Assembly (NCBI GenBank): GCA_018653365.1
Contig: JABIAG010000001.1
Location: forward strand, 514,951 to 578,950
Direction of reading: 5' to 3'
DNA length: 64,000 nucleotides
Source of the DNA: Candidatus Woesearchaeota archaeon
Lineage (GTDB): Archaea; Nanobdellota; Nanobdellia; Woesearchaeales; JABIAG01
Shown here: piece after piece, positions 15,935 through 39,256 of the stretch
Layout of the letters: the number at the start of each line of letters is the position of its first letter
Numbering within the stretch: position 1 is the first letter of the stretch
The notes under the pieces: model-generated
Database searches by the model: none
Seen by the model: the letters and a program-made list of their open reading frames with translations, nothing else
What the model was told of the DNA's origin: nothing
Program-made: the position numbers and the translations under genes

Positions 15935-16945
15935 TTAAAAAAGTCTAGTATATGAAATATGAAATCTTACTTCTGTTTGGTATGCATCATGTTCATCGGA
16001 GTTATCAGAATCTTCAGGGAATCTTCCACCTGTAACTCGCATAGAAAATGCACTTTTGCCCTTGTTTTCACGAGAAAGACTAACTCCCCCAAAACATGTT
16101 CTATCACCATTTAACGGTATTCTTGAATTTGCTCTGAGATACCATTGTTCGCTTAAAGCCTCTTCAAGACTCATGCAAAGAAATGTGTCGGAGTTTTCTT
16201 GGGTTTGTTCAACAGTAAGTTCATCCCATTCAACTTTCAACATATTAAAACTTCTTAAACGACCATAAACTACTGCCTCAAAACCATCAGTTCTAGGTTT
16301 AAATTTGATTCCGCCCTTAATCGAATAGGTTTTACCAAATTCTCCATCCTCTCGCGAATATCTTGTAGCGGTTTCGTCTGCTAAAGCATCCTCTCTTGCT
16401 TTTTCAGCAAGAGTGGGAGGTAGTTTATCGGGATTCACTTCAGGTTTTCCTTCCTCACCAAACATCTCTATTTCCCACTTAAATAAACTACCAATATCTC
16501 TAATTAAATCACCAGTTTCTAAATCAACTCTCATTCCAGGAAGAGCATCTTCAGCCCAATCCTTAACTAAGTTCTCTGCATCTTCTTCATCTTGTCTTAA
16601 AAATAAGTCATCCCGAGGATGATATCCTGGTTGAGTTCTATTCCAAATTTCAGATTGGAGAATTAAAACACGACCATCAACACGATCATAAGATTCTTGA
16701 ACCTGAAGGTGGAACTCACGTTCAAAAGCAGCAGGTAGTTCTGGAATATCCGCAGAAAGAGTTTCAGGTAAACGATTAAGATTAAACCACAACCGTTTAA
16801 ATCTTTCACTCATACTTAAATTATCACGATCCTCAAGAACATATGCTGGAACTTTATCTTTTGGCTCAACCGTTTCTTGTGCAGTAGCACACGCTCCAAC
16901 TAGAGCAGCACCAGCCAACATCCATCTTAGTTTTGGTCTAAACAT
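15935..16945 (-). CDS. putative lipoprotein with beta-rich C-terminal half
   Basis: The N-terminus MFRPKLRWMLAGAALVGAC ends in a bacterial-type lipobox (LVGAC), so Cys-19 would be lipidated. The remaining 317 residues are arginine- and glutamate-rich with few lysines. The C-terminal third reads as alternating strands (AVVYGRLRSF, FSMRVTGGRF, EVRFHISYTRLF) ending in phenylalanine, recalling bacterial outer-membrane barrels; this similarity is only pattern-level. It sits between pilin-like genes on the same strand. Lgt is encoded at 21121. Confidence 0.65.
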   Translation of the reverse strand: MFRPKLRWMLAGAALVGACATAQETVEPKDKVPAYVLEDRDNLSMSERFKRLWFNLNRLPETLSADIPELPAAFEREFHLQVQESYDRVDGRVLILQSEIWNRTQPGYHPRDDLFLRQDEEDAENLVKDWAEDALPGMRVDLETGDLIRDIGSLFKWEIEMFGEEGKPEVNPDKLPPTLAEKAREDALADETATRYSREDGEFGKTYSIKGGIKFKPRTDGFEAVVYGRLRSFNMLKVEWDELTVEQTQENSDTFLCMSLEEALSEQWYLRANSRIPLNGDRTCFGGVSLSRENKGKSAFSMRVTGGRFPEDSDNSDEHDAYQTEVRFHISYTRLF

Positions 16946-17036: not shown

Positions 17037-17813
17037 TTATTCGACTTCAATAAAAACAGTTCTACTAACGTCGTCACTAAACTTCAAATTACAAGCATAC
17101 TTGCCTGGAATTGTAGAGCCATTGATTTTTAATCGAGCAGGAATACTTTTAGTATCTCCTGGAGCAACACTACCAACTGCAGTTTGTAAGTCATAAGTAA
17201 ATCCTGAAGGAGAACAGGTTAACAAATCACTACTTCCAGATTCACAATTAGTGCCTGTAGTCCAGGTACAACTTCTATAGTTTTCACAAAATGCTTTTTT
17301 ATCTGCGTTATCTAAATTAGCCCATGTTTCGGCTGCCGCAGCATTAGTGTCTTTCGTATTAGGAAGTGCGATGTCTTCACATTTAGTAAGATTAGATTGT
17401 CCACCAGTACAAGGAGTTAATTGAAATGACAAACTTGGAATTGTAACTGCAGTAGCCCCATTAGTACAAAGAAAGTCTGCATCACAATCATCGTTTTGTC
17501 CAGTATACATATCACTACATGCAGCACCAGTAAAAGCACCACTAGTACTAATAGTAGTGGCTGAAGGATTATATATTTTAAGTTCCATAAGAGTCTCAGT
17601 TTTCTTACTTAATTGTAAGGTATTTCTTCCACCAGGAAGAGTAATTGGTTGAGATGATGTTGGTTCTGGGGTTTCTTCATTAATAGTTAGTTGAGAAGAA
17701 ACATCTCTAAATTTACTGACAGCAAATCCAATAACTAGACCTAATACTGCCAGAGCAATAATTAGAATTACAATAGCATTAACAGAAAGTTCTAAAGCAC
17801 CTTTTTTATTCAT
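17037..17813 (-). CDS. pilin-like protein, Cys-rich
   Basis: The start is ATG 17813 (MNKKGALELSVNAIVIL), chosen over the GTG at 17822 because GAGGTG sits eight bases upstream. KKG followed by a long hydrophobic helix is a type IV pilin-like signal, and the first 35 residues are nearly identical to the 18193 protein. The exterior domain carries about ten cysteines and ends in beta strands (YACNLKFSDDVSRTVFIEVE is C-terminal). Compared with 18193 it has an inserted Cys-rich segment. Likely a surface fibre or S-layer-associated subunit; that is inference. Confidence 0.75.
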   Translation of the reverse strand: MNKKGALELSVNAIVILIIALAVLGLVIGFAVSKFRDVSSQLTINEETPEPTSSQPITLPGGRNTLQLSKKTETLMELKIYNPSATTISTSGAFTGAACSDMYTGQNDDCDADFLCTNGATAVTIPSLSFQLTPCTGGQSNLTKCEDIALPNTKDTNAAAAETWANLDNADKKAFCENYRSCTWTTGTNCESGSSDLLTCSPSGFTYDLQTAVGSVAPGDTKSIPARLKINGSTIPGKYACNLKFSDDVSRTVFIEVE

Positions 17814-17891
17814 TGTACACACCTCGTAAATATGTTAAGAATAAAATTGTAGTGCTGCTATATAAATATATTGGTTTAAAGAAAAAATGCT

Positions 17892-18192: not shown

Positions 18193-18690
18193 TTATTTAA
18201 TATCAACAAATACTGTGTCAGTTATAGTTCCATTAACTGAATTGCTCATTACAACTTGTCCAATTTGCATTGTACATGACCTTTGACCGGTTGCTTCTGT
18301 ACCTTCAACTTCAACTCTAACTGGCAGTTCTTTAACAGTACCTGCAGCAATAGTCATAGCTGGTGCAGTAAAAGTACCACTTGCTAAATTACTTGGTGCA
18401 CAAGTAAAACTTATTGCAGAAGCATTGACATCATCGACTCCAGCATTATAAACACTAATAGCCATTGTTCTAACCTTATTCTTTTCTAAAGACAAAGTAC
18501 TAACGCCACCAGGTAAAACAATCGGTTGAGAAGCAGTAGCTTCTGGAGTTTCCTCTGTAGTACCAATTTGGCCAGAAACATCCCTAAATTTACTAACAGC
18601 AAAACCAATTACTAATCCCAAAATAGCTAGAGCAATAATTAAAATAACAATAGCATTAACAGAAAGTTCTAAGCTCCCTTTTTTATTCAT
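18193..18690 (-). CDS. pilin-like protein
   Basis: The start is ATG 18690 (MNKKGSLELSVNAIVIL), eight bases after GAGGTGG; the ORF track's 18699 start lies within that site. The Lys-Lys-Gly head and hydrophobic helix match the 17037 protein almost residue for residue, so the two are paralogues. The 165-residue product has a beta-rich exterior domain ending in TDTVFVDIK, paralleling RTVFIEVE of the paralogue. A small membrane protein follows in the operon. Confidence 0.75.
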   Translation of the reverse strand: MNKKGSLELSVNAIVILIIALAILGLVIGFAVSKFRDVSGQIGTTEETPEATASQPIVLPGGVSTLSLEKNKVRTMAISVYNAGVDDVNASAISFTCAPSNLASGTFTAPAMTIAAGTVKELPVRVEVEGTEATGQRSCTMQIGQVVMSNSVNGTITDTVFVDIK

Positions 18691-18823
18691 TATATCCACC
18701 TCTCATGTTTAATAGTTCAAACTTGATACTCCATAATTAGAGAAATAATATATAAATGTTTCGTTATAGTCAGAGCATAAGAAAGAGTAAACTTTATAAA
18801 CCGGATCTAAGTTTTGCTTTATT

Positions 18824-19456
18824 ATGGCAAAAACAAGGAAGTTTTCAGCATACAGAAGTTTAGACAAACCATATACTCGTACTTCAAAGTATCGGGCTAA
18901 ATCTTATATTCGTATGACAAAAAATCCTCGAATTGTAAGATGGCACATGGGAAGTCCACAAAAAAAATATGCTTACGTTTACAAATTAATTTCTAAAGAA
19001 GCACTACAAATAAGAGATTTAGCAATAGAGAGTTGTAGAACAGTAGTTAATAGACATTTAGAAAAATATATTGGAAAAGAAAATTACTATTTACACTTAA
19101 GACTATATCCTCATCACATAATTAGAGAACACGCACTAGCTTCTGGAGCAGGAGCAGATAGAATGTCCTCAGGAATGGCACGACCATTTGGAAAACCAGT
19201 ACACATTGCTGCACAACTAAAAAAACCCGGACAAACCTTATTTGAGGTATTTGTTAATAAATCAGGATTGGCTGAAGCAAAAAAAGCAATGAACAAAGGT
19301 AAAACAAAATTACCTGGAACTTACACAATCCAATTCGAAAAAGTAGAAGTAAAAGAAGTTACTGTTAAAGCAGCAAACAAAATCAAAGTACAAAAAGCTG
19401 TTGAAGAAAAAGCACAGGCTGTAAAAGCAGCAAAAAAAACTATTGCGGCTGAATAA
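18824..19456 (+). CDS. rpl10e: ribosomal protein uL16, archaeal L10e type
   Basis: This 210-residue large-subunit protein matches the archaeal/eukaryotic L10e form of uL16: KFSAYRSLDKPYTRTSK, the RLYPHHIIREHALASGAGADRM segment (quoted here as YPHHIIREH and GAGADRM), and GMARPFGKP. It lies near the peptidyl-transferase centre. A lysine/alanine-rich tail extends the C-terminus. A TATA element (TTTATAAACC) precedes the ATG at the leaderless distance. It converges with nog1 (17-base overlap). Confidence 0.96.
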   Translation: MAKTRKFSAYRSLDKPYTRTSKYRAKSYIRMTKNPRIVRWHMGSPQKKYAYVYKLISKEALQIRDLAIESCRTVVNRHLEKYIGKENYYLHLRLYPHHIIREHALASGAGADRMSSGMARPFGKPVHIAAQLKKPGQTLFEVFVNKSGLAEAKKAMNKGKTKLPGTYTIQFEKVEVKEVTVKAANKIKVQKAVEEKAQAVKAAKKTIAAE

Positions 19457-20339
19457 GTTCTAATTCCTTTTTTAATTCCACCAAACTTAATGGTTTATAT
19501 TTTTTAAATTCACTAACATCTTCTTGAACATCGGTCTTACTAACATATACTAAAACGGGTTTGTCTAATTTTTTAATTTTATTGTATAATGTTATTTGCT
19601 TTCCTAATTCTAAAGTTGGATCAAAAACAAATACAAAAGAGTTAGCTAAATACTTAATTGCTAACTCAGAAACTAGTTCGATTTTATTTGAAACCTCACG
19701 ATTTAGGGTTCCAGGAGTATCTAATAATTGAATGTTTTCCATGTAAGAAATGTTAATCCCCTTAGTTGTAAACGCATAAGGTTTAATATCTGGTTTACTC
19801 CCTGTTAACTTGAACAATAACGTTGTTTTACCCACATTTGGAAATCCAATAATACACACAGTGTTCATTGCGGTCTTAATCGTTGGAAACTGAGAAAAAA
19901 CCTTTCTAGATGCCTCTAAAATAGTTAGATTATCTTTAATTTGTTTGACAATAGAATTGATTCTGCCGTAAAATTCAGTTCTTAAAGAATTCAAACGTTT
20001 AGGTTCATCCGCATGAGTTTTTTTAAGTTTAATGGAGTATTGTTTGTGAAAAAAAGTTACTTTCTTTAATGCCCACGCCACACCACCTAAAGACTTCTTA
20101 ATGTCTGCATATTCTAGTGTTTGTTTGAACAATTCCTTATAAAATGGATCTAATTCATCAATGTTGGGATAGGTATTCATAATTTTTATTAGACGTGCAA
20201 TAACATACTCTTTAACCAAATCAATCTTATTTAGTTGTCGATCTTTTTGATTCCTAGAATTAATCTTTTGAGCACGCTTAAAAGCAGTATCAATAAATAC
20301 CTTATAATTCTCTATAGGTGGAACGTCTTTGAAAGCCAT
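19440..20339 (-). CDS. NOG1-type GTPase, ribosome assembly
   Basis: The 299-residue protein starts with the helical NOG1 N-terminal domain (FKDVPPIENYKVFIDTAFKRA) and continues with a GTPase domain: P-loop GFPNVGKTTL near residue 170, switch II LLDTPGT and a base-specificity motif VSKTD in place of NKxD. It lacks the long C-terminal extension of eukaryotic NOG1, as is usual in archaea. The role in 50S subunit maturation is inferred from the family. It faces the uL16 gene tail to tail. Confidence 0.9.
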   Translation of the reverse strand: MAFKDVPPIENYKVFIDTAFKRAQKINSRNQKDRQLNKIDLVKEYVIARLIKIMNTYPNIDELDPFYKELFKQTLEYADIKKSLGGVAWALKKVTFFHKQYSIKLKKTHADEPKRLNSLRTEFYGRINSIVKQIKDNLTILEASRKVFSQFPTIKTAMNTVCIIGFPNVGKTTLLFKLTGSKPDIKPYAFTTKGINISYMENIQLLDTPGTLNREVSNKIELVSELAIKYLANSFVFVFDPTLELGKQITLYNKIKKLDKPVLVYVSKTDVQEDVSEFKKYKPLSLVELKKELELIQPQ

Positions 20340-20373: not shown

Positions 20374-20724
20374 TTATTGTTTTCTTGAAGTGTTTGGAGT
20401 ATACGGTCTTCTCTGTAAAGTTCCTCGTATTTCGTCTGCGAGAGATACTCCTGCAGCATGTCGTACTTCACAAGAATATTGAGGGACAGAACTAGGTGTT
20501 CTTAAAGTAGAGGCCCTTCGATGATCACCTCTTGCTTGTCTGATTTCATCCCCTAAACTTATGCCCGCTGCTTGTCTTAATGCACAGGCATATATTGGTT
20601 TTGTTGTTTGCGGGGGCGGGTTAGTTGAAGAGGGATTTGAAAACTCTCTTGCGGATTGAGGTCTAGGTTGAACTGTTTGTGGGGGTACATTCCTATTTAC
20701 TAAACGTTTTAACCATGCTTTCAT
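20374..20724 (-). CDS. hypothetical protein with duplicated C-x-x-R-x-A-A-G motif
   Basis: The 116-residue protein is proline-, arginine- and serine-rich. It contains two copies of a roughly 20-residue motif: YACALRQAAGISLGDEIR and YSCEVRHAAGVSLADEIR, about 46 residues apart and separated by disordered sequence. The repeated unit (Cys, Arg, Ala-Ala-Gly, Ser-Leu, Asp-Glu-Ile-Arg) looks like a short helical binding motif. No family is recognised. It is upstream of nog1 on the same strand. Confidence 0.55.
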   Translation of the reverse strand: MKAWLKRLVNRNVPPQTVQPRPQSAREFSNPSSTNPPPQTTKPIYACALRQAAGISLGDEIRQARGDHRRASTLRTPSSVPQYSCEVRHAAGVSLADEIRGTLQRRPYTPNTSRKQ

Positions 20725-20887: not shown

Positions 20888-21124
20888 ATGGAAGAAGAAA
20901 TGAAAATGACAGACGAACAGGATCTAGAAATTAAAGAGCCCGAAGAAAACAAAGAAGAAGAGCTAAAACAACTAGAGACTGAAGGAATAGTAGAAAAAGA
21001 GCCAATTCACGTCGAAGAATTTGAACCAACACAAAAAGATGCTGAATCAGGATTTAAGAAATTTGTAATCGTTTCCATCATAATAATCATAATACTTTTA
21101 ATACTATTAATTTTTATTAAGTGA
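20888..21124 (+). CDS. acidic tail-anchored membrane protein
   Basis: The 78-residue protein is almost all glutamate, aspartate and lysine for its first 55 residues, then has one C-terminal helix (FVIVSIIIIIILLILLIFIK). With no other hydrophobic segment it should insert as a tail anchor with a cytoplasmic acidic arm. TAGGAGGT precedes the start. The stop overlaps the lgt start (GTGA), so the two are co-translated. Function unknown. Confidence 0.65.
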   Translation: MEEEMKMTDEQDLEIKEPEENKEEELKQLETEGIVEKEPIHVEEFEPTQKDAESGFKKFVIVSIIIIIILLILLIFIK

Positions 21125-21885
21125 AAATGTTTACACATACCCTAAACCCAATACTTTTACAAGTTGGGGCTCTGGAAATCAGATGGTACGGGCTAATGTA
21201 TGTAATTGCATTTATTATAACATACTTCTTTATCTTAAAATTCTCGAAAAAATTCGGATTAGAACTAAGTAAAGACGACGTGGGCGATTTTGTGCTGTAT
21301 TCTGTTGTGTTAATGGTTATATGTGCAAGACTCGTGGAAGTACTATTCTATAATCCAAGTTATTACTTTTCTGACCTTTCTAAAATATTTGCAATATGGG
21401 AAGGAGGGTTAAGTTTTCATGGTGGACTATTAGGCATAGTATTAGCAGGATGGTTATTCAGCAAGAAGAAAAAAATATCCTTCTTAAAATTAGCAGATCT
21501 AGTTAGTTTACCCGCAGTGTTAGGATTAATGTTAGGAAGACTAGGCAATTTCATAAATGGAGAATTAGTTGGAAGAATTACTTCAGTTCCGTGGTGTTTT
21601 AACTTCAGAGGATATGAAGGATGCAGACACCCCTCACAATTATACGAAGCAGGGAAAAATCTATTAATATTCTTAATACTATTTCCTATGACGGGAAAGA
21701 AAAAAGACGGATTTATATTCTTTTTATTTCTTATATTATATGCAGTTTTCAGGTCAATAATAGAACAATATTGGAGAATGCCTGCAAGATACATACTTGG
21801 TTTAACCGAAGGACAATTCTTAAACGTGTTTATACTAGTCATTGGACTAATTGGAATGTGGTGGATACATAGAAAAACTATTTAG
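21121..21885 (+). CDS. lgt: prolipoprotein diacylglyceryl transferase
   Basis: The 254-residue multi-spanning protein has the bacterial Lgt signatures in order: LEIRWYGLMY near the start, WEGGLSFHGGLLG (containing the essential His), GRLGNFINGELVGR (the Lgt signature) and HPSQLYEA. It transfers diacylglycerol to the lipobox cysteine in bacteria. The donor in an archaeon is uncertain. GTG 21121 overlaps the previous stop; ATG 21127 (MFTHTLNPILL) is the other option. Three lipobox proteins occur in the window. Signal peptidase II is not seen here. Confidence 0.93.
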   Translation: MKMFTHTLNPILLQVGALEIRWYGLMYVIAFIITYFFILKFSKKFGLELSKDDVGDFVLYSVVLMVICARLVEVLFYNPSYYFSDLSKIFAIWEGGLSFHGGLLGIVLAGWLFSKKKKISFLKLADLVSLPAVLGLMLGRLGNFINGELVGRITSVPWCFNFRGYEGCRHPSQLYEAGKNLLIFLILFPMTGKKKDGFIFFLFLILYAVFRSIIEQYWRMPARYILGLTEGQFLNVFILVIGLIGMWWIHRKTI

Positions 21886-22297
21886 GCCAATTACCCATAT
21901 CTGTATCAACAAAACCAGTTATTGCATGCTGTCTTTTACGCATATCTGGAAACCAAAACGGGTCTTCATTAGTATTTGTTGAACAAGCTTCAGTTAATGC
22001 GGTTTCAAACTCTAATTGAATTTCTTGAGATCTAGCAGGAGTGGGCCTGTACTCAGTACACATAACATGATCTTTAAGTCCTGGATGTTTATCATCTACT
22101 GCAAGAGCAACCAAAGAGGGATGCCAATACGGTTCTTCATCCTGACCAATTAAGGTCATTAACTTATTTTGAACAGGACAATTGCCAGTACTATAACAAG
22201 TTCCACAATAAGTACGAAAAAAAGGTTCAGACGTCTCACCTGTAAACTCTTGGTTGGGATGTCTTCTATAACCTGCCGGTAAATCTTCAGTATTCAT
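21878..22297 (-). CDS. hypothetical Cys-containing protein
   Basis: The 139-residue protein has a cysteine cluster CGTCYSTGNCP near residue 31 and single cysteines later (VMCTEY, EACST), which could bind zinc or an iron-sulfur cluster. It is acidic, proline-rich and lysine-poor. The 3' end overlaps lgt by 8 bases in the opposite sense. I recognise no family. Confidence 0.55.
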   Translation of the reverse strand: MNTEDLPAGYRRHPNQEFTGETSEPFFRTYCGTCYSTGNCPVQNKLMTLIGQDEEPYWHPSLVALAVDDKHPGLKDHVMCTEYRPTPARSQEIQLEFETALTEACSTNTNEDPFWFPDMRKRQHAITGFVDTDMGNWPK

Positions 22298-22381: not shown

Positions 22382-22915
22382 ATGAAACGCCGACAGAGTA
22401 TGTGCCTGACAGCAGCAGTGATTTTAGCAGGATGTAGTACTGTAAAACCTCCGATTAATAAACCTGAAAAATATTTCTTAATTCTTGGAACTGAGGGAGC
22501 AATGGCAACAATGTACAACTGCGTAACTGAATTAAATCCCGAACGACATTTAACCGTAATAGATGGATGGAGCATGCATTATCCCTCTGATCAGGAACCA
22601 ACAAGAAAAAACATGTTACGAACACTAAGAAGATTAGCAAAACAAGTCGACGCCAACGATTCATTTTATGTTTTTGTTGGAAGAGGAGTTTGGAATAAAG
22701 GATTGTTAACACAAGAAGAACTAGATTCATTACTTGACAAAATCCGACCTGAAGATGGATTACAATTCCAAATGCAATCAACAACAAGATGCTACATTCG
22801 CAAAAAAAGTGTTGGCCAAGGATGGTATGACTGGAAAAGAAGAAAAACTCTTAATTTTAAACATCACTCTCCAGCGTATAGAGAAAGAAATAGACGAAGT
22901 AATCAGAGAATATAA
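22382..22915 (+). CDS. putative lipoprotein with degenerate caspase-like pattern
   Basis: The N-terminus MKRRQSMCLTAAVILAGCS has a clear lipobox (LAGC). The rest (about 160 residues) follows the layout of caspase/C13-C14 peptidases: a first strand (KYFLILGTEG), PTRKNMLRTLRRLAKQ, then a strand NDSFYVFVGRG where active relatives have ..F.xSGHG. The catalytic histidine appears to be replaced by arginine, so this would be inactive. The family call is weak. The C-terminus is basic and may be disordered. A second frame (22734-22961) is a shadow. Confidence 0.5.
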   Translation: MKRRQSMCLTAAVILAGCSTVKPPINKPEKYFLILGTEGAMATMYNCVTELNPERHLTVIDGWSMHYPSDQEPTRKNMLRTLRRLAKQVDANDSFYVFVGRGVWNKGLLTQEELDSLLDKIRPEDGLQFQMQSTTRCYIRKKSVGQGWYDWKRRKTLNFKHHSPAYRERNRRSNQRI

Positions 22916-38071: not shown

Positions 38072-39256
38072 ATGAAAAAATTACTAATTTTAATGATTCT
38101 CGTAGCAGCATTACTAGTATTTACAGGTTGTCAAGAAGAGGACCCATATGATGATTTCATAACTGGAGACATAAATTTAGATGGTGATGATGACACTGAC
38201 GATACAGACGATTCTGATGATGACACAGACGATGCAGACGATTCTGATGACGATGATGATACAACTGATGATGCAGACGATTCTGATGACGATGATGACA
38301 CAACGGATGATACAACCCCAACAAGAAAAGATGAAAGACCATTTGGAGAAAAATTACAATCTTACATTGAAGATGAAAACAATAACATATTCGATATTTA
38401 TGACTGCCAAAATGGAATGGTAGAATTTGCAGAAAACTACAAATATGATGTAGAAGACAGAATAGATGATAAAGAAAGAGACATAGATGATCAAGACGAC
38501 GAAATAAGCGATGCAGATGACGAAGTAGACGATCTAGAAAGAGACTTAGTTATTCTAGAAGCGGATCTAGTAACACTTAAAGCACTAAAAAGCAATCAAA
38601 CCCACTGGGACGGACTAACAAGTACCCAACAAAACGCACTAACTGACGATATAAATGACAAAGAAAAAGACATTGAAAACAAAGAAGATGACATCGATAA
38701 CGCAGATGATGACGTAAAAGACGAAGAAGATTACCAAGAAGACCTAGAAGATGAACTAAACACACTTGAAGATGATCTAGATGATGCAGAAAACGCATAT
38801 GATAAAATTGAAAACTACTGTTCATTCCTAATAAGTTCAGAAGGAGAGAGCGAATTAAACATTAATTTAGCAAGATGTGACGATATAATCGACGATCTAA
38901 AAGATGACATAGATGACGCAGAAGACGATGTAAACGATGCTGAAGATGATGAAGATGCTGAAAAAGATGATCTAGATGATGAAGAAGATTTGTTAGAAGT
39001 AATGGAAGATCGACTAGACGAACTAGAAGATAACCTAACATCAATGAAAAACTTCAACTCGTCCGACTCTAGAATACCTGGAGTAGAAAGACAAATCGAA
39101 GACCTTGATGACGACATAAAAGATCAAAAAGATGAAGTAAGAGACGCAGAAGACAATGTCGACGAAGCAGCATCAGATCTAAGAGACGAAGAAAGAAAAG
39201 AAACTGATCTTAAAAGAAGATTAAGAGAAGTAAGAAATCTTTGTGCTCGAAGCTAA
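38072..39256 (+). CDS. Asp-rich coiled-coil lipoprotein
   Basis: The 394-residue protein starts MKKLLILMILVAALLVFTGC with a perfect lipobox (VFTGC). Next comes a near-pure Asp/Thr/Ser linker (DDTDDTDDSDDDTDD) of about 40 residues made of tandem repeats. Two long stretches of charged coiled coil (DKEKDIENKEDDIDNADDD, DDIDDAEDDVNDAEDDED) follow, with three cysteines in the remainder. It is a very acidic surface tether, probably binding cations. GGGGGAAAGG precedes the start. A hairpin pair follows the stop. Confidence 0.75.
   Translation: MKKLLILMILVAALLVFTGCQEEDPYDDFITGDINLDGDDDTDDTDDSDDDTDDADDSDDDDDTTDDADDSDDDDDTTDDTTPTRKDERPFGEKLQSYIEDENNNIFDIYDCQNGMVEFAENYKYDVEDRIDDKERDIDDQDDEISDADDEVDDLERDLVILEADLVTLKALKSNQTHWDGLTSTQQNALTDDINDKEKDIENKEDDIDNADDDVKDEEDYQEDLEDELNTLEDDLDDAENAYDKIENYCSFLISSEGESELNINLARCDDIIDDLKDDIDDAEDDVNDAEDDEDAEKDDLDDEEDLLEVMEDRLDELEDNLTSMKNFNSSDSRIPGVERQIEDLDDDIKDQKDEVRDAEDNVDEAASDLRDEERKETDLKRRLREVRNLCARS
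38231..38308 (+). repeat. 39-base tandem repeat inside the lipoprotein gene
   Basis: GATGCAGACGATTCTGATGA and the next 19 bases occur at 38231-38269 and again, with few changes, at 38270-38308. A shorter, related copy precedes them. Each unit encodes 13 residues of the Asp-rich linker (D-A-D-D-S-D-D-D-D-D-T-T-D), so the linker could grow or shrink by whole units without a frameshift. Confidence 0.75.

Follow-up and report, generated by a model that had tools for sequence, protein, structure and literature searches.

A stretch of 64,000 nt from a Candidatus Woesearchaeota archaeon (hereafter the window; assembly GCA_018653365.1, contig JABIAG010000001.1, positions 514951-578950 of the forward strand; GTDB lineage Archaea; Nanobdellota; Nanobdellia; Woesearchaeales; JABIAG01) contains lgt, the gene for prolipoprotein (phosphatidylglycerol) diacylglyceryl transferase. 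Our results suggest that the product of this gene is very probably a functional Lgt of bacterial type, which would catalyse the first step of the canonical two-step lipoprotein pathway (Lgt and LspA, with no Lnt), and that the pathway is an old and mostly vertically inherited trait of the order to which the archaeon belongs. The computed basis for this reading consists of the genes and their motifs, the predicted fold, the co-occurrence of Lgt with LspA and an excess of lipoboxes.

The lgt gene and its product

The gene and its most characteristic motif are located in the window as follows:

21127-21885, plus strand: lgt, encoding a protein of 252 aa (PF01790 at 230 bits; matched to 5AZB by sequence and fold)
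21535-21573, plus strand: Lgt signature motif GRLGNFINGELVG, which corresponds to residues G142-G154 of E. coli Lgt and includes R143, N146 and E151

The original prediction, which was made from the sequence of the window, described a complete Lgt with its signature motifs, and this description holds. The protein matches the PF01790 profile over positions 1-240 of 240 (E 3e-68, cut-off 24.9 bits), and E. coli Lgt (5AZB) is matched at the sequence level with an E-value of 2e-37. The likely start codon is the ATG at 21127, because the Lgts of relatives open with 'MF'; a start at the upstream GTG (21121) would give a protein of 254 aa. The six residues that are essential in E. coli (Y26, H103, R143, N146, G154 and R239, in E. 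coli numbering; PMC13251419) are all kept, and the same six are invariant across 30 Lgts of the phylum with the exception of a single Q at H103. Four residues that contact lipid in the crystal structure of Lgt (R143, E151, Y235 and R239; PMC4728403) are also retained. An AlphaFold model built with a 12-sequence alignment (pLDDT 88.8) yielded 5AZB as its sole significant match in the PDB, with a TM-score of 0.86. Judged by its sequence and modelled fold, the Lgt of the window is an ordinary member of its enzyme family.

LspA and the distribution of the probable pathway

It was also proposed from the window that this archaeon makes true lipoproteins, a proposal that predicts an LspA-like peptidase and an excess of lipoboxes among signal peptides. 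We found both, which supports the idea that true lipoproteins may indeed be made. The peptidase gene lies on the same contig as lgt:

Contig 1, 658967-659365: LspA (PF01252, 121 bits)

Its catalytic-aspartate motifs VVDF and FNVADS are present and align to 6RYO. Lnt (PF20154) was not found in the window's genome, nor above the cut-off in 30 Lgt-positive relatives. The presence of Lgt and LspA without Lnt therefore predicts a two-step pathway yielding two-chain lipoproteins.

We surveyed 279 sampled genomes of the phylum, 166 of them in the window's order and 113 elsewhere in the class. Lgt was detected in 207 genomes and LspA in 199: 189 genomes possess both, 18 Lgt only, 10 LspA only and 62 neither, an association with a Fisher p-value of 9e-35 when shared ancestry is ignored. 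Lgt was found in 155 of the 166 genomes of the order, and its distribution is patchy in the rest of the class (52/113). The presence of a bacterial Lgt in an archaeal genome is confirmed by these results, but it is not the peculiarity of one odd archaeon: it is a trait of nearly the whole order.

Alternatively, Lgt might be kept for another role, as a different transferase or in a lipid-head-group reaction, with the lipoboxes being incidental. This would be compatible with the 18 genomes that possess Lgt and no detected LspA. However, Lgt co-occurs with LspA and with lipoboxes (see below), its substrate-binding residues are unchanged, and LspA was detected in nine of the 11 Lgt-less genomes of the order, a pattern suggestive of gaps in the assemblies and not of decoupling between the two enzymes. 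We consider such a role improbable.

Putative lipoproteins

Lipoboxes were identified with a heuristic caller applied to genome samples, using a strict and a looser filter. Genes were called on 464 kb of the window's genome, as well as on parts of four other Lgt-positive and five Lgt-negative genomes of the phylum, and N-termini were scored for a positively charged start followed by a hydrophobic core and then a hydrophilic stretch. In the window's genome, 16 of 108 signal-like N-termini presented a lipobox cysteine. A stricter scan of the same genome placed cysteine at position +1 in 14 of 57 N-termini and in at most three at every other tested offset. Across genomes, lipobox cysteines were found in 36 of 295 signal-like N-termini of the five Lgt-positive genomes versus 2 of 199 in the five Lgt-negative ones (Fisher p 4.9e-7), and each Lgt-positive genome showed a higher share than each Lgt-negative genome (Mann-Whitney p 0.006), with shared ancestry ignored in both contrasts. 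The excess is therefore seen above the internal offset controls and above relatives without Lgt.

Three Peripla_BP_6 binding proteins carry textbook lipoboxes (MKKLITILLLLTLITLIG/C and others; the slash marks the predicted cut before the cysteine). They are probably the best substrate candidates in the genome, better than the three proteins of the window that were originally quoted. The corresponding ATP-binding cassette (ABC) cluster, whose permease and ATPase identities were read from sequence, and the three proteins of the window are:

L048:1243-7362 (contig 1, about 261-267 kb): cluster for a Liv-type ABC transporter, comprising two permease genes, one ATPase gene and the genes of the three lipobox substrate-binding proteins
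15935-16945, minus strand: putative lipoprotein with lipobox VGA/C, MFRPKLRWMLAGAALVGAC; marginal hydrophobic core, no Pfam match
22382-22915, plus strand: putative lipoprotein with lipobox LAG/C, MKRRQSMCLTAAVILAGC; no Pfam match
38072-39256, plus strand: putative lipoprotein with lipobox FTG/C, MKKLLILMILVAALLVFTGC; very acidic, mature part probably a coiled coil

All three lipoboxes of the window, initially described as clean, are in the sequence, but they are of unequal quality: the one at 38072-39256 is the cleanest, whereas those at 15935-16945 and 22382-22915 pass the looser filter only and belong to proteins lacking a Pfam match. These two proteins also fall in an arginine-rich class of genes with higher G+C content. 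This second class comprises 67 of 400 sampled open reading frames of at least 100 aa in the window's genome, defined by a K/(K+R) ratio below 0.5, and its mean G+C content is 0.386 versus 0.327 for the lysine-rich class. Many of its members are orphans and the class is almost absent in relative G004; further examples are found in the window (20374-20724 and 21878-22297) and at L042:5382-7922. Other side observations concern the organization of lipobox genes: two regulator-like proteins that resemble each other, each about 240 aa long, flank the Liv-type cluster, and in the Lgt-positive relative G076 at least six lipobox proteins of similar size, about 195-216 aa each, are arranged in tandem (L223:12113-17085).

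We infer from the gene content how the pathway would operate. Prolipoproteins would be exported first. Lgt would then bind a phosphatidylglycerol-like lipid through its conserved pair of arginines and attach the lipid-glycerol moiety of this donor to the cysteine of the lipobox. Finally, cleavage by LspA before the lipid-modified cysteine would yield a surface protein held by its lipid anchor, the substrate-binding proteins of ABC transporters being one example. Catalysis, this order of steps and a donor lipid supplied by a partner cell are the inferred parts of the scheme, the last of them proposed because all the tested families of lipid-core genes were undetected.

Several observations weigh against a working Lgt/LspA pathway. 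LspA was undetected in 18 of the 279 genomes despite the presence of Lgt. The lipobox calls are heuristic and drawn from genome samples, and the contrasts between Lgt-positive and Lgt-negative genomes ignore shared ancestry. Finally, one genome in which neither Lgt nor LspA was detected (G032) holds a convincing lipobox, MKNLALFLLLLTIAG/C, in the protein at L074:2233-3231. This clean lipobox might be a chance match, reflect a missing contig or belong to another lipidation route.

Genomic context and origin of the archaeal Lgt

Archaeal-type genes flank lgt on both sides. The following features lie upstream of it:

18824-19456: ribosomal L10e-type protein, read from sequence
19440-20339: NOG1-type GTPase, found by a profile search of the window's proteins
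20888-21124, plus strand: acidic protein of 78 aa with a C-terminal hydrophobic tail (tail-anchored), whose stop lies 2 nt upstream of the lgt ATG

The acidic open reading frame is preceded by a strong Shine-Dalgarno sequence, AGGAGG, and is probably co-transcribed with lgt. The coupling between the two genes that was noted in the original prediction is therefore real in the window, but it is not conserved: no equivalent adjoins lgt in the 29 relatives whose lgt neighbourhoods we compared, and the acidic protein was ruled out as a conserved partner of Lgt. In relatives L006, L008, L011, L014, L018, L022 and L027, the gene directly upstream of lgt encodes instead a membrane protein (about 260-280 aa), and a lipobox protein is found directly downstream of lgt in relatives L011, L014, L016 and L022. 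Elsewhere in the window, two paralogues on the minus strand (17037-17822 and 18193-18699) share near-identical N-terminal hydrophobic segments, NKKGxLELSVNAIVILIIALAxLGLVIGF, similar to archaeal pilin-type signal sequences.

The possibility that lgt or its contig is bacterial, through contamination or a recent isolated transfer, and hence uninformative on the archaeon, had to be considered: the Lgt family was bacterial in all cases in the reference genomes of our profile search, and none of the archaeal control genomes gave an Lgt match. However, the contig on which lgt sits between archaeal-type genes is 762 kb long and belongs to a 1.09-Mb genome with a completeness of 94.9% and a contamination of 0.24%, and Lgt is nearly universal in the order. 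The closest sequences in public genomes are those of other Nanoarchaeota/Woesearchaeota; the Lgts of another member of the phylum (G092) and of 'archaeon SI037_bin53' are identical. Our trees have a limited sampling of bacteria (proteobacterial, Gram-positive, fusobacterial and cyanobacterial Lgts). In them, the archaeal sequences fall together in a position intermediate between two bacterial groups, both well supported, and are nested in neither. One odd archaeal Lgt (L002) joins the base of the proteobacterial side, and a single archaeal clade was not rejected by the approximately unbiased test (p-AU 0.675). Contamination, which was anticipated as a potential refutation, and recent transfer are rejected on the tree, the neighbouring genes and the distribution, and are extremely unlikely. 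An old acquisition followed by mostly vertical inheritance appears to fit these sequences best.

Donor lipid

None of GGGPS, G1PDH, CarS, PlsY and PlsC was detected in the window's genome. GGGPS and PlsY were each found in 2 of 51 genomes examined, the ether-lipid enzyme CarS in 13 of 31 Lgt-positive relatives examined, and homologues of PlsC or PlsY in some relatives, where they are rare. The donor lipid is probably scavenged, unless a synthesis pathway went unrecognized. Sequence does not discriminate between an archaeal ether lipid and bacterial phosphatidylglycerol as the donor: the donor-binding residues match the bacterial ones.

Two donors, both named in the original prediction, are compatible with a working Lgt. 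We give an even chance to an archaeal ether lipid of the glycerol-1-phosphate type, such as archaetidylglycerol, obtained from an archaeal host, in which case Lgt would tolerate ether chains and the opposite stereochemistry. Cultured nanoarchaea have archaea as their known hosts, and the undetected lipid-core genes suggest that lipid is imported. Ether-lipid anchors do exist, since diphytanylglyceryl is found on the lipoproteins of Haloferax, but their attachment relies on unrelated enzymes (PMC13251419) and the donor-binding residues of the window's Lgt are those of bacterial Lgt. Alternatively, the donor may be bacterial phosphatidylglycerol taken from bacterial partners or debris, with a membrane lipid that would be at least partly of bacterial type. 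The unchanged phosphatidylglycerol-binding residues and the PlsC or PlsY homologues of some relatives are in line with this second donor, whereas the lack of detected PlsY and PlsC in the window's genome, their rarity in relatives and the occurrence of CarS in Lgt-positive relatives are not; we view it as possible and lean against it. A further proposal is that the order makes none of its lipid cores and uses lipid scavenged from hosts to operate an old Lgt/LspA pathway of bacterial type, its Lgt accepting sn-1 ether archaetidylglycerol to form dialkylglyceryl-cysteine. We put this forward tentatively, with confidence somewhat short of even. If true, Lgt would be operating across the lipid divide.

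Two candidate leads were discarded. The fifth transmembrane segment (TM5), which adjoins R143, is one residue shorter than in proteobacterial Lgt, and this was considered as an archaeal adaptation to another lipid; the short form is common to other bacterial groups as well, and TM5 is therefore uninformative on donor choice. Three CDP-alcohol phosphotransferase-like proteins were rejected as lipid head-group enzymes on account of their surroundings: they are encoded together with glycosyltransferase-like and sulfate-activation-like genes in a surface-glycan-like cluster (L124:4681-16091; contig 2, about 165-176 kb).

Comparison with known systems

A 2025 review stated that the bacterial lipoprotein enzymes have no identified archaeal homologues and described AliA/AliB in Haloferax (PMC12186497), and a 2026 study, which searched RefSeq genomes for PF01790 in February 2021, reported Lgt to be 'absent from archaea' (PMC13251419). 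The phylum-wide presence of Lgt contradicts the latter claim. In the literature searched on DPANN/Woesearchaeota, we did not find Lgt or LspA described in these archaea, although public automatic annotations may list both. What is new is the phylum-wide pathway and the question of its donor; the enzymes themselves belong to known families. Lgt and LspA are nearly universal in one large order of archaea, and archaea would hold two unrelated solutions to lipoprotein synthesis, Lgt and AliA/AliB. The donor lipid, and hence the type of membrane lipid, of these mostly uncultured symbionts becomes testable through one enzyme.

Relative to bacterial Lgt (PF01790; E. coli, 5AZB/5AZC), the enzyme of the window shares the whole fold, the active-site and phosphatidylglycerol-binding residues and the HGGL and GRLGNFINGE motifs. 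It differs in belonging to an archaeon in whose genome the tested lipid-core enzymes were undetected, and the archaeal TM5 is the shorter form of Gram-positive, fusobacterial and cyanobacterial Lgt, unlike that of Proteobacteria. The LspA likewise matches bacterial signal peptidase II (PF01252; 6RYO, 5DIR) over the whole domain, with the VVDF and FNxADS motifs, and only its context is archaeal. As in the AliA/AliB pathway of Haloferax volcanii, the lipobox cysteines would be lipid-modified in an archaeon (PMC12186497, PMC13251419), a modification that is here predicted from genes; the window's archaeon differs in possessing true Lgt and LspA, whereas AliA/AliB are described as non-homologous to the bacterial enzymes (PMC13251419). 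The closest parallel in organization is the two-step pathway of Firmicutes, with Lgt and LspA, no Lnt above the cut-off and ABC-transporter binding proteins as substrates, here putative, but in this case the cell is archaeal and the lipid is probably scavenged.
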